Shown: positions 1,311 to 20,691 of the stretch, one piece after another
Position numbering within the stretch: position 1 is the stretch's first letter
Layout: the number at the start of each line of letters is the position of its first letter
Virus record (IMG/VR): IMGVR_UViG_3300037070_001668
Span: 1 to 21,965 of that record
Length of the DNA stretch: 21,965 nucleotides
Reading direction: 5' to 3' (one strand)
Source: a virus
Notes under the pieces: model-generated
The model's input: the letters and a program-made list of their open reading frames with translations, nothing else
Told to the model about the DNA's origin: nothing
Databases searched by the model: none
Translations under genes and position numbers: made by a program

Positions 1311-2893
1311 CCTGCAATCCCACCCTTCTCGTACACCCAGTCAGTGGCAGCCCAAATAATCTCTGCTGTCGTCTCAATAGAGATACGCACACTGGCTGCA
1401 TAGGAGATGCCGCGGACGAATACCCACTGTTTACCTGACTGCGCACCACCAGACCACACAACCTGGTTCCAATGATCGACATTCCAAAGACCGTACGCAG
1501 CAAGCTCAGCTGATGCTGGAGGTGGGATCGTTGTGAAGTCGAACGCCATATTGGCACCAGCACGGTACACAAACTTGCCACTCTGGATGAAAGTGGGCCG
1601 GAGCATTTTGAAATGCTTGCTCTGGCCCGGTGTACCAAAGTAGCTAAATGCTTGCTGACAATCAGCTCTAATGGGTTTACCATTAGCATTGTCTAGGTCA
1701 ACATTATCCTGCGTCCCTTCCCAAGCACGTAGGACTTTGCCATTCGTGCCAAAAAGAAGCGCACCAAGCACAGTTGACCAGCAATTCGCAGGTATATCGA
1801 CGAATACAGTCCACGCCATTGTGACTGTATTCAATACTAGCTGCGTTGTCGATGCCGCATTGATGCCTGGTATGTTAATGAGCAGCATGTTGGCATCAGG
1901 GTACATCTGAATTGCCCAACCATTACGGTACCCACCCTCAGTCATTACGCTACTCAGTAGCGACTGAATCTTGCGTGATAGTGCATTGTCAAGCACACTG
2001 ACGTTGGTCGGCTTGGCAACAGAGCTCAATGGCACCAGGCCGTACTGTGTCAAGATAGCAATATCACCAGCATACTGAGTGTAACAACGGCGAGTGAAAG
2101 TAGGGCCGACGTAATACACGCCAATTTGGTGCCAAGTGTCAGGGTCCTCAGGATCAATTCCGGCATACATGGAGACCTCACCATTACTACTAATGGCGGC
2201 AAGGTAGTCGTCAGGTCCAAGCCCGCTGTCTTGCGAGTAGACAACAACAGCTTGGAGGTGCCCACCGCGGGAGAAGTTGGCGCCGAAATCGAAGAATTTA
2301 GCAACACCGTAGACAGCCTCAGGAGGTAAATACCAAGCCTTTGTGGAGTCTTTCTCAACCATCCAAATGCGACGATGCGCCACACATGGTGCCAAGAGCA
2401 ATTGTGGGTTGATACCTGCGACGGTGTACGGTACTGTGCCGTCACCAAAAGTAAGGCGGTGCAGGCCATCTGGAGAGACCAAGACAGGCTCGTCTACCCC
2501 ATTGAGGGCCAGCATGTGGGTCCCCGCGGCATTCGCGAAGTTAACATGCAGCCACCATGAGTACGTACTAGCACAAAGCGGTGCACCAGCGCTGTAGTCA
2601 CCTGGCACAGTGACGTCCATAATCTGCGATTGGTCTACAGCATAGATGCGTGTAGTGCCTACCTGTGGCACATAGTACAGGATACTATTAACGTCGCCAT
2701 TAAGGCCTATCGCCTGGTAATGCGTGCCCTTGCGAACCCTAACACCGAAAGCTTCTGGAAAGAAGTTACGGATGACAATGGCATCAGTCTCAGCCATTGC
2801 CGGAATAGGGCTAAGCGCATTCAGACCTCCCACAGGTGCTGTGATAGAGGTCGAGCTCGAGACTTGGCGCGTAGCAGGGGCAGCGAGGCTCAT
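1307..2893 (-). CDS. Propeller-like tail/head-closure protein (P22 gp10 position)
   Basis: 528 residues. The start at 2893 overlaps the adaptor stop (ATGA) with only a weak upstream Shine-Dalgarno, so coupling probably drives its translation. The sequence is nearly all beta, with repeated blade-like units containing W/Y-rich strands, for example around residues 70-90, 155-175, 230-255 and 345-375. There is no signal peptide or membrane segment. The N-terminal motif GGLNALSPIPAM followed by acidic residues and NFFPE is typical of phage proteins that follow the head-tail adaptor and close the DNA-filled head. P22 gp10 (DNA stabilisation protein) occupies the equivalent place. Homology to gp10 itself is not shown by eye; the role is inferred from fold pattern and gene order. 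Confidence 0.55.
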   Translation of the reverse strand: MSLAAPATRQVSSSTSITAPVGGLNALSPIPAMAETDAIVIRNFFPEAFGVRVRKGTHYQAIGLNGDVNSILYYVPQVGTTRIYAVDQSQIMDVTVPGDYSAGAPLCASTYSWWLHVNFANAAGTHMLALNGVDEPVLVSPDGLHRLTFGDGTVPYTVAGINPQLLLAPCVAHRRIWMVEKDSTKAWYLPPEAVYGVAKFFDFGANFSRGGHLQAVVVYSQDSGLGPDDYLAAISSNGEVSMYAGIDPEDPDTWHQIGVYYVGPTFTRRCYTQYAGDIAILTQYGLVPLSSVAKPTNVSVLDNALSRKIQSLLSSVMTEGGYRNGWAIQMYPDANMLLINIPGINAASTTQLVLNTVTMAWTVFVDIPANCWSTVLGALLFGTNGKVLRAWEGTQDNVDLDNANGKPIRADCQQAFSYFGTPGQSKHFKMLRPTFIQSGKFVYRAGANMAFDFTTIPPPASAELAAYGLWNVDHWNQVVWSGGAQSGKQWVFVRGISYAASVRISIETTAEIIWAATDWVYEKGGIAG

Positions 2894-3612
2894 GATCCGA
2901 CAACCCAGTTACCATCTGGTACATTGTAAACGTCAAGATATGGTACACGTGGGCGGTTCGCGAGACTCAAAACCGGTGCACCTGCGTCTTGGCCCATATG
3001 CGAGTCCAGTGCCGAAGCGAATTCGTTCGCCAATGCTGTGGAGTCAAGACCTTTAGACTGCCACAGCTTCATCTTCAAGAACTTGACACAGAGCCAGAAG
3101 TCAAAGCTCACGATGTCATTGTCCTGCTTAACCATGTTTGTCTGCATATCAGGGTCGAGGTACGACTGCACCCAACCATCACTGATATACTGGTAGTTCA
3201 GTTCCAGCCCTGCCTGAGTTGGCACTGGTACAAACTCAACCTTACCTGCTGCGATGCGGTACTGCGTGAATGGGCCCGTCATGGCCACGGCATTCATGAG
3301 GCGCTGCCATTTTTGCGGTGAAAGAGGGCCAACTGCTGGGCGACGTTGGCCCTTGTCCCAGAATGTCTGGTTAATCATCCGCGCATAGTCAGCCGGCGGT
3401 GCATAGGCACCTTGCCCGGCCACACTGATAATGGTCTGCGTCTTAATCAGCCATTCCCAGTCATAGTACATCACCAAGGTATTGCCCACGGAATTGAGCA
3501 AAGCATAAAGCTGCTGAGACTCCTCAACAGGATTCGCAACAAGCGACGCAGGTTGAAGTAGGCCTAACTCTGCAGCTGCCTGCTTTGCAATTTCGAGGGC
3601 AGTACCTTGCAT
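2890..3612 (-). CDS. Head-tail adaptor protein (P22 gp4 / tubular-A-like)
   Basis: 240 residues. The start at 3612 is preceded by AAGGAG. An N-terminal helical part (ALEIAKQAAAELGL, then a helix ending DWEWLIK around 65-75) is followed by a beta-rich middle (FTQYRIAAGKVEFVP, LELNYQYISDGWV) and a C-terminal helix. This helix-DWEW-beta-helix order is the usual look of podovirus adaptors that sit beneath the portal. The next gene overlaps it by ATGA, and the pair probably works as a head-closure module. Family membership is judged from pattern only; I am fairly sure it is a connector-type structural protein. Confidence 0.6.
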   Translation of the reverse strand: MQGTALEIAKQAAAELGLLQPASLVANPVEESQQLYALLNSVGNTLVMYYDWEWLIKTQTIISVAGQGAYAPPADYARMINQTFWDKGQRRPAVGPLSPQKWQRLMNAVAMTGPFTQYRIAAGKVEFVPVPTQAGLELNYQYISDGWVQSYLDPDMQTNMVKQDNDIVSFDFWLCVKFLKMKLWQSKGLDSTALANEFASALDSHMGQDAGAPVLSLANRPRVPYLDVYNVPDGNWVVGS

Positions 3613-3621
3613 GATTGCTCC

Positions 3622-4245
3622 TTACTTCGCGGCTGGTATTGCTTTGGCTGTCTTCTCAGCTGCCTGTGCTGCTACCAGCTTGTTCAACTGCTCCGTCAGT
3701 GCTGCCATATTAGCTTCCATGACACCAATCTTGTTGTCACGTTCAGCCAATTCAGCTAGCAGTTTGCTCGACGCAGCACCATCCTTCGCTGCATCAAGGA
3801 ACAACTTCGCCTTCTGACGCAGACCATTGAAGCCCATGAACTGCTGGGCCAGGTTGTCAGGCAGGTCAGCAAGTTGCTCAACAGTGGTAATGTTGAGGGC
3901 ATTTAGCTCTGCCACTTGCGTGATAGACAACGGTGGCCAGACCTTGAGGGGTGTACCACTGACGACTTGCTCCTCATTACGCATGAACTTGGCGTATTGG
4001 TCGGCAAAGCGGATGTGCGTATGCTCACGAGTGGCTGGTGTATCGAGGATATTGTGCTTGTCACCAGGCACAATGATACGGACATAGATCCGTTCATCAA
4101 AAATGGGCCGGCCCTCTTCATTCGACTTGAATTGATTGTGTACCGGGCGCTTGTAAAAGCGCACCAACAAGCGTTTGTCACCTGCAAAGCGAGCGCTGTC
4201 TTCCATCACCGCTTCTTCATCATATGCCGCGAGAGCATCAGCCAT
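3622..4245 (-). CDS. Phage structural-cluster protein with helix-hairpin-helix-like and coiled-coil parts
   Basis: 207 residues from the ATG at 4245. The start is chosen because AAGGAG lies just upstream; the reading frame continues to 4287 without another ribosome site. Residues 25-90 hold a beta-rich domain. Residues about 105-152 (LSITQVAELNALNITTVEQL onward) resemble a helix-hairpin-helix. Residues 158-198 form an Ala/Leu/Glu-rich coiled coil, ending in a Lys/Ala tail. It lies between the homing endonuclease and the adaptor, so it is probably a minor virion or assembly protein. No function is established from sequence. Confidence 0.55.
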   Translation of the reverse strand: MADALAAYDEEAVMEDSARFAGDKRLLVRFYKRPVHNQFKSNEEGRPIFDERIYVRIIVPGDKHNILDTPATREHTHIRFADQYAKFMRNEEQVVSGTPLKVWPPLSITQVAELNALNITTVEQLADLPDNLAQQFMGFNGLRQKAKLFLDAAKDGAASSKLLAELAERDNKIGVMEANMAALTEQLNKLVAAQAAEKTAKAIPAAK

Positions 4246-4279
4246 TTCAATTCTCCTTTTAGTATTAATCGACGGATAC

Positions 4280-4876
4280 CTAGGCATTTAGATACGCCCA
4301 AGTTAACCCGCGTTTTATATTACGTATACAAGTAGGTGATACGCAATATTCTTTGGCAATAACACGCATTGAACGCGTATCCTGCCGAATTACCAATACT
4401 TGTTGCTCTGTTACTCGTGCAGTACCTGACTTTTCACCATGAGTATATACTGCCCGCCCACGTATGCGCATATCATCCAAATTATCTTGCTGCGTTCCAG
4501 TTTCTAAATGCAAGATATTAATACAACCAGGTACATCACATTTATGTCTAACAACTACATCTGGTGCTAGAGGCCCATGTGCATATTCCCAAACAGCTCT
4601 ATGCGCTAAAATTGGTTTACCGCTACACGCCACAAATCCATATGTTTTACGCCCACGATACAAATGACAGCCATTCTGGTCTACTATATAATCTTCCAAA
4701 CGCTGCGCAAATGTTAGATCGCGTGTAGCTTGTACGCGTGCCAATGGATCGCCATATTTCAGTAGGCGCTTGTAGTGTGCTTGGCATAGCTTACGAGCTT
4801 TGACTATGCCATTGCACCCTTCAATGCTGCAACTACTGCTCTGTATAAATCGTACCATGCCTAGTGATCGTGACAT
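4280..4876 (-). CDS. Free-standing HNH homing endonuclease
   Basis: 198 residues from the ATG at 4876, chosen because GGAGAG precedes it by 5 nt; the frame is open further upstream. Residues 16-34 carry a zinc-finger-like set (C16, C21, C31, H34). The nuclease core is AHRAVWEYAH (91-100) followed by VVRHKCDVPGCINILHLETG (108-127) and N132. This matches the HNH_3 pattern with catalytic His111, the Cys pair 113/118, Asn120 and His123. Residues about 157-193 read as a helix-turn-helix, as in many homing enzymes. Base composition is visibly more AT-rich than both neighbours, and the gene interrupts an otherwise overlapping late operon. Both points support insertion as a selfish element. No intron is evident. 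Confidence 0.88.
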   Translation of the reverse strand: MSRSLGMVRFIQSSSCSIEGCNGIVKARKLCQAHYKRLLKYGDPLARVQATRDLTFAQRLEDYIVDQNGCHLYRGRKTYGFVACSGKPILAHRAVWEYAHGPLAPDVVVRHKCDVPGCINILHLETGTQQDNLDDMRIRGRAVYTHGEKSGTARVTEQQVLVIRQDTRSMRVIAKEYCVSPTCIRNIKRGLTWAYLNA

Positions 4877-4954
4877 TACACTCTCCGGTGCACTTGATCT
4901 TGATAGTTGTGTCCATTGCGCATCCTGCCAAAAACACAAGGATGAGCAAGTATC

Positions 4955-5512
4955 TCATGTGAATGTTCTAACTGCCTCGAGTTGAACCACAAAGAAGCCG
5001 TTGGTCAGCGTACATGCTACACCATTAATCTCTGCTACTGCACGAATGCTATAGACTGCTCCAGGGGCAGGCGCTGGGTCCACGGCTGTCATTGACACAG
5101 CCACCGGGTTCGCTGCACCACCACCTGTAGCTGTAACGCTCCATGGTGTCGCGACACCGTTCTTGAACAGGGTGAAGGTGACGAATCTATTCAGTGCACA
5201 TGCCACATTGGTCGTGAACACAATCGTGGCTACGCCAGCCTCAGCACGGGTCACTGTACTGGCGGGCACCGCTGAGGTTGTCTGAGACGGATCGCTGTCC
5301 GTAGCCGTGGCGAACACAAACAGGGACGAGGCAAGGTTGAACGTCTGAGAGGCAGGGCCGACCAGCTGCAAGTACCCATAAGCTGGGGAAATGGCGTTAA
5401 GCACGTCCACAGCCCAAGTACGCAGCTTCGCCGGGGTGATGAGCCCCGTAGTATTGTCTGGGAAGTTGGCATTGGCTTCGGCAATCAGCTCAACGATGGA
5501 TTTGCGCGCCAT
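4955..5512 (-). CDS. Virion fibre-like protein with conserved phage N-terminal segment
   Basis: 185 residues. The ATG at 5512 overlaps the preceding stop as TAATG. Residues 1-45 (ARKSIVELIAEANANFPDN, then ITPAKLR and a helix ending in NAISPAYGYL) are a segment seen at the start of many small phage fibre or decoration proteins. The remainder is beta-rich and Ala/Thr/Val-rich, compatible with a trimeric fibre or an immunoglobulin-like domain. The last residues, after FFVVQLEA, lie directly beside the inserted HNH gene and may have been altered by that insertion. Virion surface location is inferred; whether it sits on the head or the tail cannot be told. Confidence 0.55.
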   Translation of the reverse strand: MARKSIVELIAEANANFPDNTTGLITPAKLRTWAVDVLNAISPAYGYLQLVGPASQTFNLASSLFVFATATDSDPSQTTSAVPASTVTRAEAGVATIVFTTNVACALNRFVTFTLFKNGVATPWSVTATGGGAANPVAVSMTAVDPAPAPGAVYSIRAVAEINGVACTLTNGFFVVQLEAVRTFT

Positions 5513-5910
5513 TATCCGAAGCCCAAGTCGAACCCTGACGACCAACCATCTGTAGTCGATGGTACCGCATCTGTCATGAACACGCCAAATAGATTGCTGA
5601 CGCGAATACCACCTACATAAGGCTCATCGCCAACAGGCACTGCGTTCATTGCTACTGTGACGAGCCTGCCATCTGCAGCGAAGGGCAAACCACCCTGCCA
5701 TGCATGAATCACAGCACCAGGTGCATAACACAACTGCCCTAGATTAGACGTGCCGAAGCCACCATTAAATCTGGCCGGTGCTGCAATGGGAAGGACGTGG
5801 ACTGCCCCGAGGGCATCACGCATGATGCCACCCTGGGCTGAGGAGGTTGCAGTGGGAAGGGCTGACGTGGTGTACAGCCGTCCCGCTGCGTCGACGCGTC
5901 CAGCGATCAT
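5512..5910 (-). CDS. Hypothetical virion-cluster protein
   Basis: 132 residues from the ATG at 5910, which overlaps the upstream stop as TAATG; the downstream end forms another TAATG. Glycine/alanine-rich with many short beta strands (GRVDAAGRLYTT, GALGAVHVLP-type turns), no membrane segment and no cysteine cluster. The position after the capsid gene and before the fibre-like protein suggests a minor virion or fibre-associated protein. I do not recognise the family. Confidence 0.6.
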   Translation of the reverse strand: MIAGRVDAAGRLYTTSALPTATSSAQGGIMRDALGAVHVLPIAAPARFNGGFGTSNLGQLCYAPGAVIHAWQGGLPFAADGRLVTVAMNAVPVGDEPYVGGIRVSNLFGVFMTDAVPSTTDGWSSGFDLGFG

Positions 5911-6245
5911 TACACTGGCTCGTCTTCTACTACTTCTTCTTCCAGCACTTCTGGGTCCTCCAGCACAACTGCCCACGACAGAGTCTGATGCGTAGTGTTG
6001 CCCGCAATTGCCGTGTACGTAGGGATACCTGGAGTAGGGGCAGTCGTGCTGCGCGTGACTGTATCATCAGCAGCGATGAAGTCCTGCGGCAGCGGCTCGG
6101 CGCTGGTCAGACCAAAGCCGTAGCCAATGAAGTTAGTCGTACAACCTCGCGCTGAGGTCGTACCGTCAGCCACAGCCTTCGCCGGGGCAACTACCGGCTG
6201 TGCGCCGCTAGCGAGTCCAATTAGTGCACCTGCAATACCAGCCAT
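5910..6245 (-). CDS. Small hypothetical protein after the capsid gene, acidic tail
   Basis: 111 residues from the ATG at 6245, which has a strong GAGGAGG 6 nt upstream. An in-frame start at 6275 is poorer. Residues 1-16 (AGIAGALIGLASGAQP) are small and hydrophobic. The middle contains RGCTTNFIGYGFG, and the last 15 residues are strongly acidic (EDPEVLEEEVVEDEPV). It follows the capsid gene after a hairpin and couples to the next gene by TAATG. Possibly a decoration or minor head protein; no family recognised. Confidence 0.6.
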   Translation of the reverse strand: MAGIAGALIGLASGAQPVVAPAKAVADGTTSARGCTTNFIGYGFGLTSAEPLPQDFIAADDTVTRSTTAPTPGIPTYTAIAGNTTHQTLSWAVVLEDPEVLEEEVVEDEPV

Positions 6246-6268
6246 GATAACCTCCTCAAAAGTGGGGA

Positions 6269-7520: not shown

Positions 7521-8596
7521 AATCTGCTGCCCCCTCCGCTCATAAGAGCATCGATGGTTCCGCGTAGGTCATTAGGATTGACACGGCTCGCGCCATTAAT
7601 GCCACCAGGTGCCCCACTGACGCTCCTACTCGCACCCTTAGCCTTCTGGGCCTCTTGGTGTGCACGTAGTGCTGCGTCCGTGGCACTGCTCGCGGCAGGT
7701 GCCAAATCGTTCATGCGTACGGCTTTATTATAGGCCGCTGGAAGATCAATGTACACACCTTTTCGCGCACCGTCTTCAATAATCAATGCCATGTCACTAC
7801 GCACTGTCTCAAAGTGCGGATAGGTCTCGTCATCTGCCTGCATCGAGTCAATCGTGGTGTTCATCTCCTGCTCAGCACGTTCTGCCTGCTGCCGTGCTGC
7901 CTGCTCCTGGCGTTCCACGAACGTCATAATGGGGCGAAGGCGCTGGTCGAGCAGTTGCTCGATATTGCTATTCTGCTGCCGACTTGGCTGCTGAGTCTGC
8001 CCTGCTAGAATCTCGTCGAGCATGCCGATGTCGACGCCATACGTCGTTATCATGTCAGCTACGAACTTAGCACGATCCTGTGGTGCTGCACGTGTCAATG
8101 CCTGTTCTGCCTGAAACAAACTCTGGATAGCCGTCATTGGGTTACCGCCATAGTTTTGGCGGATGAACTCAGTGTGGGGTGCTAACACCTGCGTAATCTC
8201 AGTAACCTTGCGGTTATTGAGGCTACTCTCCTTAATAATCCGCGATGTATCGCGTTCACGTTGGTTCACTTGCAGACGGACAGAAAGGGGCAGGTCCTTC
8301 CAAAGGGTTTTGGCACCCTCCTTCCATGACTGTGGCGCCTTGGCAAGAGGATCATCTTGATGCTCTTCAGGTTTGGCTTTTGCTACCTGCTCGATGTTGG
8401 TCTTGCTATCTGGCTGAGGAGCCTCTTCTGCTGGTTCGCTTCCTGCCGGGTGTTCCTCATTAGACTCACCAGAATTATCTGTGACCCCATCGCCTGCATC
8501 GGGGCTAGGCGTATCGGTGGTAGCGCTATCTGGAGCCGTTTCATTAGATTCTTCCTCAATGGCGCTCTCGAGGGCAGCGCGTAGGTCTTCAGCCAT
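7517..8596 (-). CDS. Scaffold-like head assembly protein
   Basis: 359 residues; AAGGAG before the ATG. Residues 1-85 are highly acidic and Ser/Pro/Glu-rich, probably disordered. The middle has helices such as WKEGAKTLWKDLPLSVRLQV and a long helix rich in Gln, Glu and Arg (about 205-245: RLRPIMTFVERQEQAARQQA). The C-terminus is Gly/Ser/Asn-rich. An acidic disordered start with a central coiled coil, located between portal and capsid, is the usual form of a phage scaffold. No protease motif was seen. Confidence 0.7.
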   Translation of the reverse strand: MAEDLRAALESAIEEESNETAPDSATTDTPSPDAGDGVTDNSGESNEEHPAGSEPAEEAPQPDSKTNIEQVAKAKPEEHQDDPLAKAPQSWKEGAKTLWKDLPLSVRLQVNQRERDTSRIIKESSLNNRKVTEITQVLAPHTEFIRQNYGGNPMTAIQSLFQAEQALTRAAPQDRAKFVADMITTYGVDIGMLDEILAGQTQQPSRQQNSNIEQLLDQRLRPIMTFVERQEQAARQQAERAEQEMNTTIDSMQADDETYPHFETVRSDMALIIEDGARKGVYIDLPAAYNKAVRMNDLAPAASSATDAALRAHQEAQKAKGASRSVSGAPGGINGASRVNPNDLRGTIDALMSGGGSRL

Positions 8597-8608
8597 GGTA
8601 ATTTCTCC

Positions 8609-8917
8609 TTATTTATAGATTTGACGCGCCAGCTCTTGGCGTATTGCAGCACGGTCGGGCTTGTATTCCTCGACCGATCGCTTAGGTGGTAGTCCTGCTA
8701 AGTCTGCTGTTGGTACCACATTATGTTTGCTGCAATGCTCACGTAGACCTGCACGGCCGCGTACAATGGTTCCGTCAATAGGCGACTTGAAGTCGGGCAG
8801 GTCTGGTAGGAAAGTCGCTGATCGCGGTGATCCGCCTGTTGCCTCAACACCTTCCGGAAGTGGTTGACTCTTGTCATATAGGACTCCGTTTATCTGGACA
8901 TAACTGGTACGTAGCAT
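8609..8917 (-). CDS. Small hypothetical late protein
   Basis: 102 residues from the ATG at 8917, chosen for the AAGGAGG 7 nt upstream; the frame is open upstream without such a site. Residues 1-50 read as a small beta domain (SYVQINGVLYDKSQPLPEGV). A basic helical part follows (TIVRGRAGLREHCSKHNVVP), and the end KPDRAAIRQELARQIYK is a basic helix. Located between portal and scaffold genes. Family not recognised; a head-assembly accessory role is possible. Confidence 0.6.
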   Translation of the reverse strand: MLRTSYVQINGVLYDKSQPLPEGVEATGGSPRSATFLPDLPDFKSPIDGTIVRGRAGLREHCSKHNVVPTADLAGLPPKRSVEEYKPDRAAIRQELARQIYK

Positions 8918-8918
8918 A

Positions 8919-9140
8919 CTACACCTCCTTATACGTCCGCTCGAAGACATCGGCGGGAGACCAGCTGATATAGCCTTTGTGGTCTGGATGGTTACTCTTA
9001 CCACCCTCCTCGTACTCAACAAGATAACCGTCCTCGTCAGGGTCCTCGTTCTCTGGAAGTGCCCAGCCACGATAGGCATTGTATGTACCACGAGTCATCG
9101 GCTTTGCACTAAGGTACTTAGTTCCAACGTAACGTTTCAT
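8919..9140 (-). CDS. Small hypothetical late protein
   Basis: 73 residues from the ATG at 9140, preceded by AAGGAG. The sequence MKRYVGTKYLSAKPMTRGTY, then WALPENEDPDEDGYLVEYEE, GYISWSPADVFERTY resembles small phage proteins that carry a GYLVEY and ISWSPADVFE pattern. These are often annotated only as hypothetical. It lies directly after the portal stop (1-nt gap) and 1 nt before the next start. Function unknown, but existence is well supported by ribosome site and packing. Confidence 0.68.
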   Translation of the reverse strand: MKRYVGTKYLSAKPMTRGTYNAYRGWALPENEDPDEDGYLVEYEEGGKSNHPDHKGYISWSPADVFERTYKEV

Positions 9141-9141
9141 G

Positions 9142-11244
9142 TCATTCTCCTTTTGATGGGGCAGCCGCGGCCTTCGCAGCGCCAACAACTTCTATCTGCT
9201 CGACCTGCGCATCTGTCTTCTGCTGCAAGATCGACAACTCTTCAATGGTCTTCTCACGCAGCAACTGCAACTCTGTCGCTGCCTTCTCTTGCATGGCTGT
9301 CAGTTCTTGATGGAACTTAGCCCATGCCATCTGCATCTCTTGCTGGAATTGCTCACGCTCCAGTTGCAGCTTCTGTTGCTCTGCTTCTTGCTTCATCTGG
9401 AACTCAGCTTGCTTCTGCTGGAACTCACCCTGTTTGGTTTGCATAGTCTGCTGGAACTCTTGCTGCGACTGCTGCATCTCCATCTTCGCCTTCTCAACTG
9501 CTGGGTCCGGTGGAGGGGGCGGAGGATTCTTGATCTTCTCCATGATAACAGTCAAGTTCCTGTCAATGACACCCTCGAGGTCCTTAGCACCACGGAACCC
9601 ACTCACTGCATACTTAAGGGTCTCGAACAGGATAGGGGCAGTGTCCGGCATGGCCTTGAGCGTCGTGGCAGCAGACTGCAAGAACGTCGCCACAGCATTA
9701 GTGAACTCGACGCGGTCTTTCTTGAGCGCCTCGGCGTCCACCATGCCCATGCTGTCAGCTTCGACCTTGACCCGCCAGCAGAGCATGAGCTTTGGTTGCT
9801 GCGCGTCAGGCGAGAACTGCATGTTTGCCATGCGCAGCAACTGCTCTGCCGAGACATGCTTCGCTAGGATCTGCGCCTTGATCTGCAGTATCTCCTGCGC
9901 AAAGCGGGCCACCTCATCCTGCAGCTTCTGGATGCGTACATTGGCGTACTGTGCCTTAAGACTCTGCGCGCCCAGTGTCTCTGATGCCTTCGTGGCACCT
10001 CGTACGATGTCGCTGATCCCGTTCAGCTCGTATATCTGTGCCTTGATCGACTCCCGAGCATTCTGCAGCTTCTCGAGGGCGGCGATGACGACGTCCAAGG
10101 GCAGCCAATCGACAGCGCCCTTGATGCCACCTTTCTCTGCGAACATCGCCCAACTGTCAACTGGTATGAGCGTGTTCTCAGACCCACTGTCGAGCATGCG
10201 CTTGAGACCTGTCGCTGAGCTGTCATAGACGCCCACGACCTTGCACGCCTCAACCAGGAGCGAGATGCGGTTATTGACCGTGTCCAGCTCATTGTACTGG
10301 TCCTGCGCCATGATAAAGTCATTGACGGGGACGCAGTTACTGGTCGTCATCAAGGCGAACAGAGGCTTAGGGCAAGGCTCGAACTCTTTGAGCTGCAGCG
10401 GATCCTCTTGCGTGTCCAGTATACTAGGCCATTGCTTACTCAGCCAGATGACCCGTTTGGTCTGACGATCCCATATCTCATAGATCGTCGCCTTCTTAAG
10501 GATGTCGTTCTTCGGATCATTGCTGGTCCCAACGCTTGTCTGGTTCTTCGTGCTATAGTCGAGCGGTATCTTCCTGCCTGGGTCCTCTCCGAAGCGTTCT
10601 ACCAGAGAGTCTCTGTCCATGTAGACACGACGACCCACCCAACGACGCTCCTCCCAGACCCTGCAGGGGCTATACAGAAAGTCCTCCCAGTTCACATGCT
10701 CTGTGACGACCTCTTGGTACTTTATTTTGTCGTAGGTGACGGGCTCGTCATCGACCAGTAGAGGGTCGCCCTCCATCTCCTCCATGGTCGCTGTCTCGGT
10801 CTCGGTCTCAAGACGCAACCACGCCGTACCGAGCCCGGGCACCAATCTATCCTGCACAGCATAGCGCAAGACCTGATCGAGGTTATTGTCCTCGTCATCG
10901 AAGCCTTGTGTGACGGCGTTCTGCATGATAGTGCTGGCCACACGGGCCGGGTCGTCGTCTGGTTGCTCGAACCGCCGCGAGACCGACACCTTCGGCAGCT
11001 TCGCGTACAGCACCGACTCCAATATGGACACGTTGGTACTGAAGATATTGAACTTGCGCACGGCGGCGTCAGCGGCGTCGCGCTCGTCCTTGTAGCGGCG
11101 TGACGTCTCGCGACCTCGGCGGCGGAAGCCCTCTAGCTCCTTCTCCGACATGATGACCTCATCACGCCAGCGCCCATAGTCAAGCTCCGGTGTGTCCTCA
11201 GTCTTAATTATGGACTCCAACCGTCCTGGCGTATCTTGTGCCAT
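9142..11244 (-). CDS. Portal protein
   Basis: 700 residues; the start at 11244 lies 12 nt beyond the terminase stop. The N-terminal region (about 25-60, RWRDEVIMSEKELEGFRRRG) and the following helical and beta parts match large podovirus portals. VPVNDFIMAQDQYNELDTVN (about 308-327) and the helix near QIYELNGISDIVRGATKASE are characteristic wing/stem and clip-side segments. Residues 574-579 are a run of prolines. Residues 583-687 form a very long Gln/Glu-rich coiled coil (repeats such as EFQQKQAEFQMKQ), an extended C-terminal barrel helix of the type reaching into the capsid. It would form the ring through which DNA is packaged and ejected. Gene order terminase-portal supports the call. Confidence 0.87.
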   Translation of the reverse strand: MAQDTPGRLESIIKTEDTPELDYGRWRDEVIMSEKELEGFRRRGRETSRRYKDERDAADAAVRKFNIFSTNVSILESVLYAKLPKVSVSRRFEQPDDDPARVASTIMQNAVTQGFDDEDNNLDQVLRYAVQDRLVPGLGTAWLRLETETETATMEEMEGDPLLVDDEPVTYDKIKYQEVVTEHVNWEDFLYSPCRVWEERRWVGRRVYMDRDSLVERFGEDPGRKIPLDYSTKNQTSVGTSNDPKNDILKKATIYEIWDRQTKRVIWLSKQWPSILDTQEDPLQLKEFEPCPKPLFALMTTSNCVPVNDFIMAQDQYNELDTVNNRISLLVEACKVVGVYDSSATGLKRMLDSGSENTLIPVDSWAMFAEKGGIKGAVDWLPLDVVIAALEKLQNARESIKAQIYELNGISDIVRGATKASETLGAQSLKAQYANVRIQKLQDEVARFAQEILQIKAQILAKHVSAEQLLRMANMQFSPDAQQPKLMLCWRVKVEADSMGMVDAEALKKDRVEFTNAVATFLQSAATTLKAMPDTAPILFETLKYAVSGFRGAKDLEGVIDRNLTVIMEKIKNPPPPPPDPAVEKAKMEMQQSQQEFQQTMQTKQGEFQQKQAEFQMKQEAEQQKLQLEREQFQQEMQMAWAKFHQELTAMQEKAATELQLLREKTIEELSILQQKTDAQVEQIEVVGAAKAAAAPSKGE

Positions 11245-11256
11245 GCCCTACTCCTC

Positions 11257-12753
11257 TTATAATCTTTTGCTGGTGGTGGCGACCCTGTCTTCCCATAGGT
11301 CGTCCAATGTCATCTCGTTGATAGTAGGTCGTCTGAGAGGGACGACATTCCCGACCGGCCTAGCGATAGCGAGCAATCTGCGACCCATAAGACCCAGACT
11401 GTCGATGCCGTCGTCAACACCCATACCGATCGCGTTCGGGAACGTCAGCAGCTCCGTCGTCAGCCACGACGCCCATGGCGCGTCCGCTGGCATGTAGACC
11501 TTGTGCCGCTTGTACATGCCACGCAACGGGGCAGCGCGTGTCTCTTTGTTCTGACCCCGCATCCTCAGCATGCACCATGGCACTGGCACCCCCCGCTCTC
11601 TCGCGGCTGTGGCCACTAGAGGGGCGAAGGTCTTGCTCGCGTTGTCGTCGTCTATGAGCCACTCCGTCGGGTGCCATGTCTCACACATGTCGACGATGTC
11701 CGTCGCCGACTCGTTGACGTCAACCCTCTTCCTCCGCGCGTCCACGATGTCCCAGTCCCCTTGGGCGTCCACGGCGACGGCGAAGTGGACTGTGTAGTCA
11801 CCAGTGTTGACGCTCAGCGCCAAGTCAGTCATGCCGTACACCACTTGGTCGGCGGTACGGGGCGGAGAGGGCCGGAACTGAATGTCGGCACTACCCACCC
11901 ATGCTCCATCATCTGCCGGCGGCTCCTGCTGATACAGCGTGCGCCACTTGTAGTCGTCTCGCTTGGCGTCGATGACCATGGACTCTGTGAACCACTCTGG
12001 CCACAACCTCTCTCCTGGTGCTCGACCGAGGACATCGCCCTCGCCTGCCTCCATCTGCAACTTAATGACACGCTGGCGCTTAGTAGGGGCGAGGATGTTC
12101 CTGTCGATGAGGTACCCCGCCATGTCATTGCGGGCCAGCCTCTGACATATGAGGACGGTCTTAGCACCTGGCTTAAGCCGCGTCGTAAAGTCAGTCTCAT
12201 ACCAGTCATGCATCTTAGCCAGGCGCGTCTGACTCTGCGCCTCCTCGAAGCCACTCACTGGGTCGTCGATGATGGCGAGGTCAGCTCTGAACCCAAGTAT
12301 GCCTGAGCCGACACCTGCCGCGTACAACTCCCCACCTGCCGCATTAGCCCAACGACCAGCCGACGTGCTGTCCTGTGACAGTCTCAAGTTGAACAGCAAC
12401 TCGAACTCACTCGAGTCTACTGTGTTGCGCACCCTTCTGCCCCACTTCTCCGCCAACTCCGTGGAGTAGGACGCCGTCAGAACCATTTTGGTCGGGTTCT
12501 TCCCCATAAAGTAGGCGGGGAGAGCGATCGAGGTGTAGGAGCTCTTCGCAGACCCAGGTGGGGCGAGGATGATGAGCTCGTCGTACTGGTCGTCCAGCAG
12601 CTCATCAATGGCTTGACAGATATATCGGTGATGAAGGGCAGGCACTTGGCCCAATACGTGCTCAGAAAAGCCCGCCAAGGACCCTGTCGCAGCCTCTCGG
12701 CGGGACAGCTCCTGCAAAAGTTCTTCTTCGAGGCTTGAGAGGGGCAGAGGCAT
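11257..12753 (-). CDS. Terminase large subunit
   Basis: 498 residues. The ATPase P-loop is APPGSAKSS at 64-72, and Walker B is LAIIDDP at 159-165. A coupling-type motif follows (VLICQRLARNDMAG, 200-213). The C-terminal RNase H-like nuclease has acidic residues at D310 (GMTDLAL), D368-370 (LIDDDN) and D448/D451 (DDGIDSLG). Together these form the packaging motor that cuts and pumps DNA into the head. Length is normal for the family. No Shine-Dalgarno is visible in the 20 nt before the ATG, which is unusual here since most other genes have one. Portal and head genes follow downstream. Confidence 0.93.
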   Translation of the reverse strand: MPLPLSSLEEELLQELSRREAATGSLAGFSEHVLGQVPALHHRYICQAIDELLDDQYDELIILAPPGSAKSSYTSIALPAYFMGKNPTKMVLTASYSTELAEKWGRRVRNTVDSSEFELLFNLRLSQDSTSAGRWANAAGGELYAAGVGSGILGFRADLAIIDDPVSGFEEAQSQTRLAKMHDWYETDFTTRLKPGAKTVLICQRLARNDMAGYLIDRNILAPTKRQRVIKLQMEAGEGDVLGRAPGERLWPEWFTESMVIDAKRDDYKWRTLYQQEPPADDGAWVGSADIQFRPSPPRTADQVVYGMTDLALSVNTGDYTVHFAVAVDAQGDWDIVDARRKRVDVNESATDIVDMCETWHPTEWLIDDDNASKTFAPLVATAARERGVPVPWCMLRMRGQNKETRAAPLRGMYKRHKVYMPADAPWASWLTTELLTFPNAIGMGVDDGIDSLGLMGRRLLAIARPVGNVVPLRRPTINEMTLDDLWEDRVATTSKRL

Positions 12754-13130: not shown

Positions 13131-13252
13131 AGGTTGTTAGGCCGAGTAACACGAGGCCAGGATCATAGGCCCTGGTACCTGGGTCGAGTCGCTGTTCTTA
13201 TGCCTGGTTCCTACATAGGCCAGCGGCCTGGTCTATTACATTCCCCTAACTG

Positions 13253-13274
13253 AGGTCCTGTGGTGCATTAGCAC
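13253..13274. repeat. Left copy of hairpin-bearing 22-nt repeat
   Basis: Starts AGGTC and contains the hairpin GTGC-ATTA-GCAC at 13263-13274. It matches the stretch at 14419-14440 at 18 of 22 positions. One pair of differences is compensating (T-A here, C-G there), so the hairpin is kept. The word GATCCACCC lies 1 nt after this copy and just before the other. Confidence 0.5.
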
Positions 13275-13302
13275 TGATCCACCCAGGTTCCATGGTCTTG
13301 TA

Positions 13303-13320
13303 CAGGTGCGTAGCACCCTG
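13303..13320. repeat. GGTGC/GCACC hairpin
   Basis: CAGGTGC, loop GTA, GCACCCTG: five paired bases, one bulge, then two more pairs. It is the third hairpin in about 200 nt upstream of the rightward promoter. Confidence 0.4.
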
Positions 13321-13355
13321 AACTGCGAGCAACGCGAGCGTCGCGAAAATTAGAC

Positions 13356-13388: not shown

Positions 13389-13417
13389 TTGACGAAGCTA
13401 AAAGGATGGTACATAAT
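13389..13417 (+). promoter_or_regulatory. Sigma70-type promoter for the rightward operon
   Basis: TTGACG at 13389-13394 and CATAAT at 13412-13417 are separated by exactly 17 bp: each box matches the consensus at 5 of 6 positions. Transcription would start near 13424, about 45 nt before the first gene. It is the best promoter match found in the window. Confidence 0.65.
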
Positions 13418-13469
13418 GTATTCATGGATTAGCAATAACGCTGGTTCAGAAACAACTGGAGTAATACAA

Positions 13470-13793
13470 ATGTCTAAGAATCGTGATTTCTCGTTGTCCG
13501 AACAAGTCGCCGCTGCCGCTACTTCTGACGTGGTTGTTGAACAGGTCGTCGAACAGGTGGCTGAGACTGCAATGGGCATTGGTGCAGTCGCACGCAAACT
13601 GATTATTGGTAACACAACTGCTACTAATAAACAGGTGTTAGAACGTGTGCTTAAGTTGTTTCCAGAAGCAAAGACTACTGCTGCTTGTATTGCGTGGTAT
13701 CGCAATGACTTGGTGAAAAAGGGACTGATTGCAGCGAATGCTTCACGGACTGTGCTGAAGATTGAAGTTAAGGATGAAGACTTCGTGCTGTGA
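13470..13793 (+). CDS. Conserved-type phage protein, possible winged-helix, first gene of rightward operon
   Basis: 107 residues from the ATG at 13470, chosen because GGAG lies 8 nt upstream and about 45 nt after the predicted transcript start. The frame is open from 13389, but that ATG-poor part covers the promoter. An N-terminal Ala/Val/Glu helix (VVVEQVVEQVAET) precedes a compact domain: ATNKQVLERVLKLFPEAKTT, then CIAWYRNDLVKKG. The pattern of a helix, FPxAKT and an IxWYRxxL helix recurs in small proteins of many phages. It looks like a three-helix DNA-binding fold, but no function is known to me. Its stop overlaps the next start (GTGA), so it is coupled to the membrane protein. Confidence 0.72.
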   Translation: MSKNRDFSLSEQVAAAATSDVVVEQVVEQVAETAMGIGAVARKLIIGNTTATNKQVLERVLKLFPEAKTTAACIAWYRNDLVKKGLIAANASRTVLKIEVKDEDFVL

Positions 13794-13960
13794 TACACGC
13801 GATATATTTTTGGTTACAGTTCTTTGCAGCATGCTTCGGCGTGTTGCTTGGAGCTGTACTAATATCGTGTATCGGCAAATGGCGCTCGTTTTTCATGACG
13901 AATGACGAGTGCATACAGGACATAATCAAATGGTCGCAGGACCATCATCGAAAGGACTAA
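13790..13960 (+). CDS. Small membrane protein, coupled second gene
   Basis: 56 residues starting with GTG at 13790, which overlaps the preceding TGA as GTGA. It ends with TAA at 13958-13960, overlapping the next ATG. Residues 5-28 form one membrane segment (IYFWLQFFAACFGVLLGAV, then LISCIG), followed by a basic turn (KWR) and a polar tail ending DHHRKD. An N-out or N-in single-pass protein with a cytoplasm-type basic flank is likely. It has no Shine-Dalgarno of its own, so coupling is the argument for translation. Function unknown; it is too short to be found by ordinary length cut-offs. Confidence 0.6.
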   Translation: MIHAIYFWLQFFAACFGVLLGAVLISCIGKWRSFFMTNDECIQDIIKWSQDHHRKD

Positions 13961-13962
13961 TG

Positions 13963-14157
13963 ATGCAACAAGTAACAGGTTATACCGTATTAGTAACAGT
14001 TTGTGACTGCCCGCATTGTGGCCATAATATCGAATATGCTGGTGTTGAGCTTAACATTGGTGATACGTGCTCCAATGTTATTGATGATACTGAGGTTATG
14101 ACTTGCCCGTCATGCGTTGTAAAGTTCATATTGCATCATGCTCAACCGGTATTCTAA
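13963..14157 (+). CDS. Zinc-ribbon protein, third gene of rightward operon
   Basis: 64 residues. ATG codons occur at 13960 and 13963; AAAGGA is 6 nt before the second, which is preferred. C16-x2-C19 (CPHCG) and C48-x2-C51 (CPSC) make a four-cysteine zinc ribbon, with an extra C14 and C36. Between them is a beta-type stretch (NIEYAGVELNIGDT). Such small ribbons bind nucleic acid or proteins; no partner is known. A TTCG hairpin lies 5 nt after the stop. Confidence 0.68.
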   Translation: MQQVTGYTVLVTVCDCPHCGHNIEYAGVELNIGDTCSNVIDDTEVMTCPSCVVKFILHHAQPVF

Positions 14158-14162
14158 GGACA

Positions 14163-14178
14163 AAGGCCTTCGGGCCTT
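14163..14178 (+). terminator. TTCG-loop hairpin ending the rightward operon
   Basis: AAGGCC-TTCG-GGCCTT, a perfect 6-bp stem with an unusually stable TTCG loop, begins 5 nt after the last stop. The following sequence is C/T-rich (CACCCCTTCTTC) but lacks a pure T-run, so termination may be partial. Confidence 0.6.
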
Positions 14179-14340
14179 CACCCCTTCTTCGTCCTGATGG
14201 CTATGGTCTTAAGGTTGATCTTAGCGATTAGTCCACGAGATGTAGGCAGGTTAAGAGGGACGATGATTCAGGTGGTCGTTAGCGCGGTATGTGAACCTTT
14301 TGAACCACTGGTCCATTTGTCTTACCGCGACATACGTAGA

Positions 14341-14386
14341 GTGACCTATGGTCACATTGTTGGTGGTCTTTACACTTCGCGCGAAG
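14341..14386. repeat. Two perfect palindromes
   Basis: GTGACC-TAT-GGTCAC at 14341-14355 and CTTCGCGCGAAG at 14375-14386. Either could be a protein-binding site or an RNA hairpin. Confidence 0.5.
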
Positions 14387-14770: not shown

Positions 14771-15124
14771 TCATACGTCAACGACGTCGTCCGGAGGCCT
14801 CCGCGACAACAATAACGCACGTATATCTTCGCTCTTCATACCTCGTACATCGCCCAACATAGCACGCTCTACGTTTACCTGCACCGCCATCGTCGCTTTT
14901 GGTGCCTCCATAGCGATCAAAAGCTTCAAAAGCTCCGAATAAAACCTCTGTGGATTGTCTTTTGCGACCCTTTCCATAGCACTTCGGCCGCCAATAGCAG
15001 CATAAACTGCCAGATATTCATTGACTAGGTCCTTCGAGGATACTATAGTACCAGTATTTTGCTCGTTGCCTATGTCTTTTGCCTTACATTTACCAGCTAA
15101 AAAGTCTTCCATTGTCCAGATCAT
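14771..15124 (-). CDS. Hypothetical phage protein, candidate terminase small subunit
   Basis: 117 residues from the ATG at 15124, with AAGGA 9 nt upstream. Mostly helical: DLVNEYLAVYAAIGGRSAME, then DNPQRFYSELLKLLI. The NPxxFYxxLLKLLI pattern occurs in small phage proteins that include small-terminase-like DNA-binding proteins. It is the last leftward gene before the terminase large subunit, though the rightward operon lies between them. The C-terminus is basic then acidic (LLSRRPPDDVVDV). Small-terminase identity is inferred from helix pattern and position; a replication accessory protein is also possible. Confidence 0.6.
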   Translation of the reverse strand: MIWTMEDFLAGKCKAKDIGNEQNTGTIVSSKDLVNEYLAVYAAIGGRSAMERVAKDNPQRFYSELLKLLIAMEAPKATMAVQVNVERAMLGDVRGMKSEDIRALLLSRRPPDDVVDV

Positions 15125-18199: not shown

Positions 18200-18888
18200 T
18201 TAACACTCCCCGCAGCGCTCTGGTCGGTGGTGATGGCTGCACGGATGGCTCTGGAGCAATAGGCGGCAGCCTTGTTCCAAATGAACACATCACGTTCAAT
18301 TCCAGAATCATCGCCATTATCATTCGACGCTTCGCATATCTTTGCGCACACCTCGTAAGCGTCTGCCTGTGCGGCGGCGAGCTGGGTGCGGAGTTCGTCG
18401 CGCTCTCTACAACACTCGGCTGCGAACTTACCCCAGCGTGCAGCGGACTCTTCAGCCTCCGCAATCCTCGCGTCTCGCTCATCGGCGGGAGGTGCGGCGA
18501 ATAGCAACACAGTTCGCGTTATGAGTTCCTCGCGCACATGCTGCTTGGCGGTTCCCGGCGGGACATAAACCCAGTCTTCGACCGCATTGGGTGAGCGTTT
18601 GAAATAGACTTTCTCTTCAACCGGCTTGGCCGCAGCCAGAGGTGCGGTGAATAGCGGCTGCCACGCGCCGCTTGCCTTGCGGATGTCTTCAATGGCGCCT
18701 TCTGGCAGAAGCTCAGGCTGGCGCATAGGATCGCCAATACTGAAGCGAGCCCAAGCAACCGGCCTGGCCTCCGCCAGCACTTCGGTCAGAGCTTGGCGCC
18801 ATTTAGCCAGGTCGGGTCTCAGATTCTGAACGCCCAAGGCTAGAGCTCGCTGCTCCACCGCGTCGATGATGCTGTTTTTGTTGGTCAT
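18196..18888 (-). CDS. Ea22-like phage accessory protein
   Basis: 230 residues; AAGGA 7 nt before the ATG at 18888. It contains AWQPLFTAPLAAA (about 74-86), the WxPLxTAP word common in Ea22-like and related prophage proteins, and VYFKRSPNAVEDWVYVPPGT. A long coiled coil follows (RDARIAEAEESAARWGKFAA, ERDELRTQLAAAQADAYE). The C-terminus carries several cysteines (CAKICE, YCSRA). Stop overlaps the next start (ATGA). These proteins are frequent in temperate phages' non-essential regions; function is not established. Confidence 0.62.
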   Translation of the reverse strand: MTNKNSIIDAVEQRALALGVQNLRPDLAKWRQALTEVLAEARPVAWARFSIGDPMRQPELLPEGAIEDIRKASGAWQPLFTAPLAAAKPVEEKVYFKRSPNAVEDWVYVPPGTAKQHVREELITRTVLLFAAPPADERDARIAEAEESAARWGKFAAECCRERDELRTQLAAAQADAYEVCAKICEASNDNGDDSGIERDVFIWNKAAAYCSRAIRAAITTDQSAAGSVK

Positions 18889-18897
18889 GATTGTTCC

Positions 18898-19134
18898 TTA
18901 AAGCGGCAGCAGCGAGAAAACGACGTAGCCTGTCTGCTGCGCGTAGTCGGTGACATAGCCGATACGATGGGTGACGATGTCGCCGCTGTAGCTGTTGGTC
19001 GGTGCGTGGTACTGCTGCTGTTCAATGGTGTCGCCTTCGCAGTAGTTGCGGTCGTTCAGGCGAATCTCGAAAGTTTTGTCGCCAGCGCGTACTGCTTCAA
19101 AATGCGGATCAACGGATTTGACGATGTGGTGCAT
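18898..19134 (-). CDS. DUF3850 / ASCH-domain protein
   Basis: 78 residues from the ATG at 19134, which shares a base with the upstream stop (TGATG) and follows GGGGGAG. An open frame continues to 19251 but without a start site of equal quality. The whole protein matches the short DUF3850 pattern: MHHIVKSVDPHFEAVRAGDK, TFEIRLNDRNYCEGD, then strands to GYVVFSLLPL. ASCH-type domains are thought to bind RNA or nucleotides; the K-x-FEIRLNDRNY core is well kept. Its role in phages is unknown. Confidence 0.85.
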   Translation of the reverse strand: MHHIVKSVDPHFEAVRAGDKTFEIRLNDRNYCEGDTIEQQQYHAPTNSYSGDIVTHRIGYVTDYAQQTGYVVFSLLPL

Positions 19135-19946
19135 CACTCCCCCGCTTTCTTGGAGAGTGCTGCGTCGATGGCGCGCAGTGGTCGTCCGCAATACTGGCAA
19201 AGGTGTCCGTATTGCATTGAGCACAGCAGCCTGCCGCAAGTGCTTGTCCATGTGCCCGAGACGTCAGACTTCACCCACTCGCAAACCTTCTCCTGCTCCG
19301 CACTCTTGCCAAGCTCTCCGCTGGGCTGGTCGTACAGCCCCATCCGCTGCGATTCGTCGGCCAAATCTTGCAGGGCTTTGCTGGCTTCGGCTCGCTTGGC
19401 TACATCATCCACAACTCTCAGCATGTGCGCTACATCATCCACAACTCTCAGCGTGTGCGCTGCGGACTCCATTGCGCGCCGGGCTGATCGTGATTCTGAT
19501 TTCTTGGCGGACTGCTCAAGTTCCAGCGCTTGGCCTAAAAAATCGATGCGGATGCTGGTGCCAAGACTTTCGACAACGCCGTGCCAGAACTCTTCATCGG
19601 CAACGTATCCGGCTTCCCGAGCTTTGCTGGCCTCGGCTCGCTGGATGGCTTTACGCATCTGAATAATGCAAAGCACTCTGTCAGTCAGCCACCCGTCACC
19701 AGCAGCAAGCACGGCAGCCCTGTCGGAATCCTCGCCCAAATGCCAGATTGCTTGTCTTAACGCCGCCAGCAATTCCTCATCGACCGAGACCGATGGCGGG
19801 CTCGCGGGGAGTTGGGCACGCAATGCCGCACGCCAACCATCACGGCATAGCTGAAGGATGTACTGGCGCTCATCGCTTTCGTCGCAGTGTTGTGCGAAGT
19901 AGTCGGAGAACCACAGATCAAACTTCTCGCGCTCAGCCTTGTCCAT
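19134..19946 (-). CDS. Phage accessory protein with C-terminal zinc-ribbon-like end
   Basis: 270 residues from the ATG at 19946, where AAGGAG is 7 nt upstream; the frame extends to 19976. The N-terminus (EREKFDLWFSDYFAQHCDES, then CRDGWRAALRAQ) is a pattern frequent in prophage accessory proteins. The word RAEASKA occurs twice, about 88 residues apart. A 10-residue tandem repeat (AHTLRVVDDV, AHMLRVVDDV) lies near the centre. The C-terminus holds CEWVKSDVSGTWTSTCG, then HLCQYCGRPL, a likely zinc-binding set. It overlaps the previous gene by 14 nt. Function unknown. Confidence 0.65.
   Translation of the reverse strand: MDKAEREKFDLWFSDYFAQHCDESDERQYILQLCRDGWRAALRAQLPASPPSVSVDEELLAALRQAIWHLGEDSDRAAVLAAGDGWLTDRVLCIIQMRKAIQRAEASKAREAGYVADEEFWHGVVESLGTSIRIDFLGQALELEQSAKKSESRSARRAMESAAHTLRVVDDVAHMLRVVDDVAKRAEASKALQDLADESQRMGLYDQPSGELGKSAEQEKVCEWVKSDVSGTWTSTCGRLLCSMQYGHLCQYCGRPLRAIDAALSKKAGE
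19399..19458. repeat. Tandem 30-bp repeat, two copies
   Basis: Units 19399-19428 and 19429-19458 differ at one base (CAGCATGTGC versus CAGCGTGTGC). The repeat is in frame and doubles a 10-residue segment, so it is a recent duplication. Confidence 0.85.
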
Positions 19947-20505
19947 GCTCTTCTCCTTGGGGGTGCGGGGCGGCAAGCGACATCAGGAACTTGCGAACCG
20001 TGCGGAATTCTTCATTCCGGTAGCTGCCCTCGGCGTAGATGCGCGGCTCATGCAGGTTGTGGCCGTTGCGCGCGATGTAGTCATTGCAGCCTTGCTCGGT
20101 GAAGCAGGCGGTCACGAACTCCCAAACATGAAACATAGGCAACCGCTTCCATCCGTCTGGCTCTTCTCTGGTTTCAGCGAAGTGCGCTTCGAGTCGATCA
20201 TGCTCGGCGTCGTCTTCCGGGCCGCCGTACTCGCCACTCTCTGTTTCGTGCCACTCGTATTCGCAGTCGTTGTAGCCGTCGTCGGTCACGTACTTCCGCT
20301 TCTGCTGGACGATGAAGATCGGCGAGTCGGTGATGCGATTGTTCTGCGTGGCAATGAGACGGCCGATCTCTGCCAACTCCCCCTGCGCCCGCAGCGCGGC
20401 CTCGGCCATGCGGAGGGCTTCGGATGCTTGGTTGTTAAGCAGGTGGCAGATGTCAGCATCCGTCGCTATCCTGGCAATAAGGTGGGCAGCCTCTTCATTG
20501 GTCAT
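19933..20505 (-). CDS. Ea22-like phage protein
   Basis: 190 residues from the ATG at 20505, with GGAG 8 nt upstream; an in-frame GTG lies at 20514. The N-terminus is helical (AHLIARIATDADICHLLNNQ). The middle is acidic with ETESGEYGGPEDDAEHD. The C-terminus contains FVTACFTEQGCNDYIARNGH, then PRIYAEGSYRNEEFRTVR, a segment shared by many proteobacterial phage accessory proteins of the Ea22 type. The gene belongs to the overlapping early run. Known relatives lie in non-essential early regions; function is unknown. Confidence 0.65.
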   Translation of the reverse strand: MTNEEAAHLIARIATDADICHLLNNQASEALRMAEAALRAQGELAEIGRLIATQNNRITDSPIFIVQQKRKYVTDDGYNDCEYEWHETESGEYGGPEDDAEHDRLEAHFAETREEPDGWKRLPMFHVWEFVTACFTEQGCNDYIARNGHNLHEPRIYAEGSYRNEEFRTVRKFLMSLAAPHPQGEEHGQG

Positions 20506-20596
20506 CTTGCACACTCCAACGCCCGACTATGAAGCCCATTATCGTACACACGCCACCTGTAATCATACCGATTATAAAAGCCAAGTTTACAGTCAT
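20495..20596 (-). CDS. Tiny membrane protein (33 residues)
   Basis: ATG at 20596 with AGGAGG about 9-10 nt upstream. It overlaps the previous stop as ATGA and the next gene by 11 nt. One membrane segment covers nearly the whole chain (LAFIIGMITGGVCTIMGFIV), then GRWSVQDDQ. Ribosome site, coupling and hydrophobic pattern support a real gene that length cut-offs would miss. Function unknown. Confidence 0.6.
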   Translation of the reverse strand: MTVNLAFIIGMITGGVCTIMGFIVGRWSVQDDQ

Positions 20597-20691
20597 CTCC
20601 GCTTCCCTCCTTTGTCTGCAGTATGACATACGATTGCGATGGCAATGAACACACCACCAAGAATCATGACTTCAATAAACCATTGTGGCAC
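20593..20691 (-). CDS. Tiny membrane protein (32 residues), GTG start
   Basis: GTG at 20691 with AGGAGG exactly 6 nt upstream, lying inside the end of the previous gene. The stop overlaps the next ATG (ATGA). A single membrane segment (WFIEVMILGGVFIAIAIVC) is followed by a basic tail (HTADKGGKRR), which predicts a cytoplasmic C-terminus. It sits as a coupled pair with the 33-residue protein. Function unknown. Confidence 0.6.
   Translation of the reverse strand: MPQWFIEVMILGGVFIAIAIVCHTADKGGKRR

Follow-up and report, generated by a model that had tools for sequence, protein, structure and literature searches.

Within the window, by which we mean the whole stretch of 21,965 nucleotides that was analyzed, a cassette of three plus-strand genes lies inside the packaging block, from a terS-like gene to terL, and not between early and late blocks, as the initial annotation had proposed. 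The three rightward ORFs that it described are present at the sizes given there (107, 56, and 64 amino acids), with a GTGA overlap at the gene 1/gene 2 junction and TAATG at the gene 2/gene 3 junction. The features of the locus, in window positions, are as follows.

11257-12753, minus strand: terL, the terminase large subunit gene, divergent from the cassette
13244-13342, no strand assigned: noncoding block between the divergent terL and gene 1, conserved at 94% identity and containing short inverted repeats; a possible regulatory region
13389-13417, plus strand: sigma-70-like site TTGACG-17-CATAAT, the promoter of the initial annotation; the -35/-10 pair is unsupported
13458-13461, plus strand: GGAG, the probable ribosome-binding site of gene 1; sequence kept in the closest relative (locus L002)
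13470-13793, plus strand: gene 1, 107 aa (coordinates include the stop), with an FPxAxTTxxxIxWYR domain, predicted three-helix and HTH-like
13790-13960, plus strand: gene 2, 56 aa, GTG start, predicted one-helix membrane protein
13952-13956, plus strand: AAGGA, a plausible ribosome site for gene 3
13963-14157, plus strand: gene 3, 64 aa, zinc-ribbon-like (CPHC...CPSC), optional
14163-14178, plus strand: AAGGCC-TTCG-GGCCTT hairpin closing the cassette, also in the closest relative
14175-14368, no strand assigned: noncoding block separating the cassette from the terS-like gene, conserved at 93% identity; may serve in regulation, or as a pac site or origin
14771-15124, minus strand: terS-like gene, 117 aa, convergent with the cassette; named by position, with no PHROG match

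Gene 1 starts at ATG 13470 with GGAG upstream, and the best start of gene 3 is 13963, six bases past AAGGA; a longer TTG-start frame for gene 1 is broken by a stop in the relative. That closest relative, IMGVR_UViG_3300037071_003297 (38,330 bp; hereafter G001, with aligned locus L002), is ∼85% identical to the window over their common DNA and keeps both gene 1 and gene 2 at identical position and strand. Gene 1 is 95% identical between the two (3 amino-acid-changing and 19 silent differences; dN/dS 0.042) and gene 2 is 83% identical (dN/dS 0.154), each ratio resting on these two sequences, and codon position 3 takes the majority of the changes in both genes. These ratios, together with the position-3 bias, indicate coding on the plus strand: genes 1 and 2 are genuine, translated in the plus direction, and under purifying selection. 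Gene 3, in contrast, is cleanly absent from G001, where its place is a precise indel flanked by CTAA repeats with the hairpin retained, and no copy was found elsewhere in that genome. Since genes 1 and 2 are kept while gene 3 is precisely missing, the conserved unit is the pair and gene 3 is optional, so that the proposed three-gene unit holds for its first two members only. Nor does the trio recur in other phages: across viral contigs and phages, gene 2 was found only in G001 and gene 3 nowhere, and a nucleotide search of the cassette DNA against phages and plasmids returned no match.

Gene 2 is predicted to contain a membrane helix at about residues 11-29 (hydropathy maximum of 2.4 over 19 residues), followed by a short soluble C-terminal tail; it has no match above a curated cut-off in any library, and no homologue outside G001 in any collection searched. 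Gene 3, known from a single sequence, has two CxxC knuckles, CPHC and CPSC, and weakly matches phrog_2834, a family of unknown function. The GC content of the cassette is low (44% versus 54%). Conservation of genes 1 and 2, the hairpin, and the flanking noncoding blocks support the earlier view of a separate counter-oriented unit, and the cassette looks like a small accessory or regulatory unit that is ordinary in kind.

Every other gene had been described as lying on the minus strand, which is true within the window; however, the other arm of G001, of ∼9 kb (∼3.1-12.3 kb), runs on the cassette's strand and encodes a family-A DNA polymerase, an SNF2 helicase, a thymidylate-synthase-like protein, and a dCMP deaminase (the gene calls on IMG/VR contigs being mechanical ORFs). 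The window is therefore one arm of a two-arm genome, and the cassette is an island of the other arm's strand. The replication genes of G001 follow the order seen in YuA/RDJL-like phages: polymerase, SNF2 helicase, a gene of the same family as gene 1, thymidylate-synthase-like gene, and dCMP deaminase.

The TTCG hairpin was found as first described and is conserved in G001, with a T run after it in L002 that is absent from the window. The consensus-like promoter fared less well: the region holds 5 such sites versus 4.0 ± 2.2 in shuffles, and the -35 element is not conserved, L002 having only a -10-like ATAAT at the aligned place. Both noncoding blocks (93-94%) exceed the mean identity of 85% for the pair, their 100-base windows ranking in the top 12-32%, and their identity is also above that of most coding DNA of the window and G001. 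An Rfam search of the cassette flanks returned no RNA family, the z-scores of the blocks' fold energy against shuffles were not significant, and the blocks yielded no repeated operator motif, which counts against a regulatory reading. An ORF at 14175-14368 was rejected: most of the differences within it alter the amino acid, and the frame does not stay open in the relative. The two blocks may have a regulatory function, or may mark a packaging site or an origin.

Gene 1 matches phrog_17205 among the PHROG profiles (E 1.1e-11), and a family profile that we built recovers it from the window at E 3.4e-25, gene 1 itself being among the profile rows; no Pfam or NCBIfam model matches it at its own cut-off. 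Its PHROG and tblastn matches lie in YuA-like, Pamexvirus, Steinhofvirus, and RDJL phages, whose homologues are hypothetical proteins encoded after a helicase. An alignment-based scan of viral contigs yielded 64 family loci, and none of 84,980 species genomes of bacteria and archaea gave a confirmed member. Two residues, namely P65 and Y77 (gene 1 numbering), are common to all aligned members. The largely open-access literature searched contains no account of the FPxAxTTxxxIxWYR domain. Judged by sequence similarity, gene 1 belongs to a phage domain family that nobody has named and that is widespread in YuA/RDJL-like phages, which ties a formerly orphan cassette to a widespread domain.

The family occurs in three settings: (i) behind, or fused to, SNF2 helicases, (ii) doubled in ADP-ribosyltransferases predicted to be injected, and (iii) counter-oriented beside the terminase; identifying the ligand of one small member would open a way to test all three. 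In the first setting, 32 of the 48 standalone family genes come immediately after a co-directional SNF2 helicase gene, and a thymidylate-synthase-like gene lies inside the fetched flank of 36. Moreover, in one contig (L041, 3991-5862), the gene 1 domain is fused to the C-terminus of an SNF2 helicase, mirroring the helicase/standalone order seen elsewhere. Gene 1 itself lies not at this site, which is typical of the family but not defining, but beside terL. G001 carries two family copies, namely the cassette copy and a helicase-side paralogue (5785-6246, minus strand) that is 42% identical to gene 1 over 89 alignment columns, including a C-terminal SRTV stretch. In the second setting, two domain copies are present in MuF-type head proteins of YuA-like phages (L035, 8096-11686; PaMx28, 8474-12055; ZQG1, 1698-5087), with the ADP-ribosyltransferase domain confirmed at the C-terminus of the L035 protein; this MuF-ADP-ribosyltransferase class is predicted to enter the cell together with the injected DNA (PMC5512222, PMC9503650). 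In the third setting, RDJL-like phages carry, besides a helicase-side copy, copies of ∼150 aa that are divergent from terL by 2.5-4.1 kb and sit in a counter-oriented cluster running from primase to terS.

Among named phages, a close likeness to gene 1 is shown by hypothetical or "TolA-like" post-helicase proteins of YuA-like phages (Mesyanzhinovviridae), Pamexvirus, and Steinhofvirus (e.g., PaMx28_56 and ZQG1 WID42025.1; phrog_17205, phrog_34102), which are likewise small and standalone and share its 50-55 residue domain at 34-43% identity. Gene 1, however, is without the long Ala/Lys-rich C-terminal tail of most known members, and the positional counterpart of the post-helicase protein is the helicase-side paralogue of G001, not gene 1. 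Roseobacter phage RDJL3 (genes at 1-225 and 1468-1941) resembles the cassette in having counter-oriented small genes beside the terminase with the same domain family, a family copy being the first annotated gene of its cluster next to terS; but the RDJL-like cluster is much larger and lies upstream of terS, whereas the cassette lies between the terS-like gene and terL, and the 150 aa RDJL-like members fall in a clade of their own and have an additional domain at the N-terminus. The MuF-ADP-ribosyltransferase head proteins (phrog_21789; Xp12 A0A7G9UT14) share the domain in two copies, but are virion proteins of ∼1,190 aa in most of which the motif W and R are replaced. A tree of the 54-residue core, weak because of its few columns and a long branch, places gene 1 with the helicase-side clade, apart from the terL-side RDJL clade; family members thus seem to have been recruited to the terminase side more than once and not to have been inherited there from a common ancestor. 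Since each genome has several copies (2-6 in the YuA/RDJL-like phages checked), the terL-side parallel may also be convergent or due to chance.

AlphaFold, run with a 48-row alignment, predicts helices at residues 37-47, 53-63, and 71-84 of gene 1, with a core pLDDT of about 80-90 and disordered ends. Foldseek against the PDB ranked Lrp/AsnC and Fur-type winged helices best, although weakly (best E 0.33, probability 0.96); no PDB fold matched at E 0.001, PDB chains searched by sequence gave no significant match, and the matches among viral structures were to the family itself, including the Xp12 ADP-ribosyltransferase. The predicted fold, the fusions, and the gene neighbors suggest that gene 1 probably binds DNA, while the few basic residues in its third helix count against such a function. 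The role as a switch first put forward for the cassette is compatible with the predicted HTH fold and with the placement divergent to terL.

We tentatively favor, at somewhat less than an even chance, an explanation in which gene 1 is a DNA-binding duplicate from the replication module, residing in a cassette that acts on packaging or late transcription, with a membrane accessory. In its favor are the purifying selection on genes 1 and 2, the phage-borne family and its usual place after the helicase, the helicase-side paralogue, the helicase fusion, the three-helix prediction with its weak winged-helix matches, the terL-divergent copies of RDJL-like phages, and the conserved noncoding flanks. 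Gene 1 is a duplicate of the family member that this phage group encodes immediately after its SNF2 helicase, and the zinc-ribbon gene would have been inserted into, or lost from, the gene 1-2 cassette. The cassette would be expressed from the replication-arm strand, probably, as a guess at timing, early or mid infection; the gene 1 protein would bind the conserved intergenic DNA between gene 1 and terL (the target site also being a guess) and, once bound, would time or insulate the transcription of packaging and late genes. The gene 2 protein, by a further guess, would be a co-expressed accessory in the host inner membrane.

Two explanations are close rivals to this one. The first, which we consider somewhat unlikely, is that the cassette is a host-takeover island, that is, a shortened early-gene cluster acting on host DNA, polymerase, or membrane, without a role in phage gene timing. 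The counter-oriented small-gene cluster of RDJL-like phages (∼5-7 kb, primase to terS/terL) does contain family members, in two loci (L062 and L066) the gene after the family member encodes a small membrane protein, and the low GC of the cassette suggests accessory DNA; however, these two membrane proteins have no detectable homology to gene 2, no host target is indicated, and the clusters vary in gene content. Stenotrophomonas phage BUCT555, which has a two-arm genome and a related morphogenesis module (capsid 67% identical), likewise begins a cluster of small genes divergent from terS, but no member of the family of gene 1 was detected in it. Two proteins of BUCT555 (L172, 3966-4538 and 38177-38869), one in the terS-divergent cluster and one in the early arm, share an LNPGQQRM...GN..R motif; the layout in two copies is similar, but the small domain is not that of gene 1. 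Another contig, L074, whose terL is 65% identical, has between primase and terS (4180-5288) counter-oriented genes for a zinc-ribbon protein, a 73 aa protein, and a 51 aa membrane protein; homology of this cassette to that of the window was looked for and not found, the likeness being in composition only, and no relatives of it were found.

The second rival, to which we assign a lower probability, makes gene 1 a replication or packaging accessory that coats or organizes phage DNA with the SNF2 translocase, the terminase, or the virion, and not a transcription regulator. The helicase neighbor and fusion, the adjoining terL, and the two domain copies in head proteins predicted to be injected all agree with it, but the copy beside terL runs opposite to both terS and terL, which makes co-transcription unlikely, and there is no virion evidence for gene 1.

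A more speculative proposal, of low probability, is that the domain serves as a DNA-recognition module specific to phages, tethering the SNF2 translocase, the injected ADP-ribosyltransferase, and small regulators to the genome of their own phage, whose bases would probably be modified, with gene 1 as a stand-alone reader marking the terminase region. Helicase-side family genes lie with thymidylate-synthase-like and dCMP-deaminase genes, and this nucleotide-modification context is suggestive. Thymidylate synthases normally have Asn at the last position of the GLPxD motif. The thymidylate-synthase-like protein of G001 (L148, 4582-5403) has Asp there, as do those of five YuA/RDJL-like phages, a possible hint of modified pyrimidines in the phage DNA.

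Superinfection exclusion or anti-defence had been suggested initially; a membrane-based form, with gene 2 as the effector and gene 1 as its regulator, appears quite improbable. Gene 2 does encode a short membrane protein with one span and overlaps the gene of an HTH-like protein, and gene 3 is variable among relatives, a trait common in defence-related cargo; but composition alone is weak evidence, gene 2 has neither a library match above a cut-off nor a homologue beyond G001 in the collections searched, and the sole PADLOC match is a weak one, to gene 1 (E 0.017). Finally, that the ORFs are spurious and antisense to a leftward transcript is hardly credible: a 139 aa antisense ORF does overlap gene 1, but it has no family match and a poorer dN/dS (0.142 versus 0.042), grounds on which it was also rejected as the main gene, and gene 1 homologues are wide, with selection and homology contradicting this reading for genes 1 and 2, while gene 3, known from a single sequence, may still be spurious.

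Elsewhere in the window, an HNH-type (HNH_3) endonuclease gene at 4280-4939 lies inside the structural block; ∼550 bp of it are absent from G001, where its flanks are nearly adjacent, and it is likely a mobile homing-type insertion. Beyond primase, at 18240-20600, the window and G001 have only short patches in common, suggesting rapid gene turnover.
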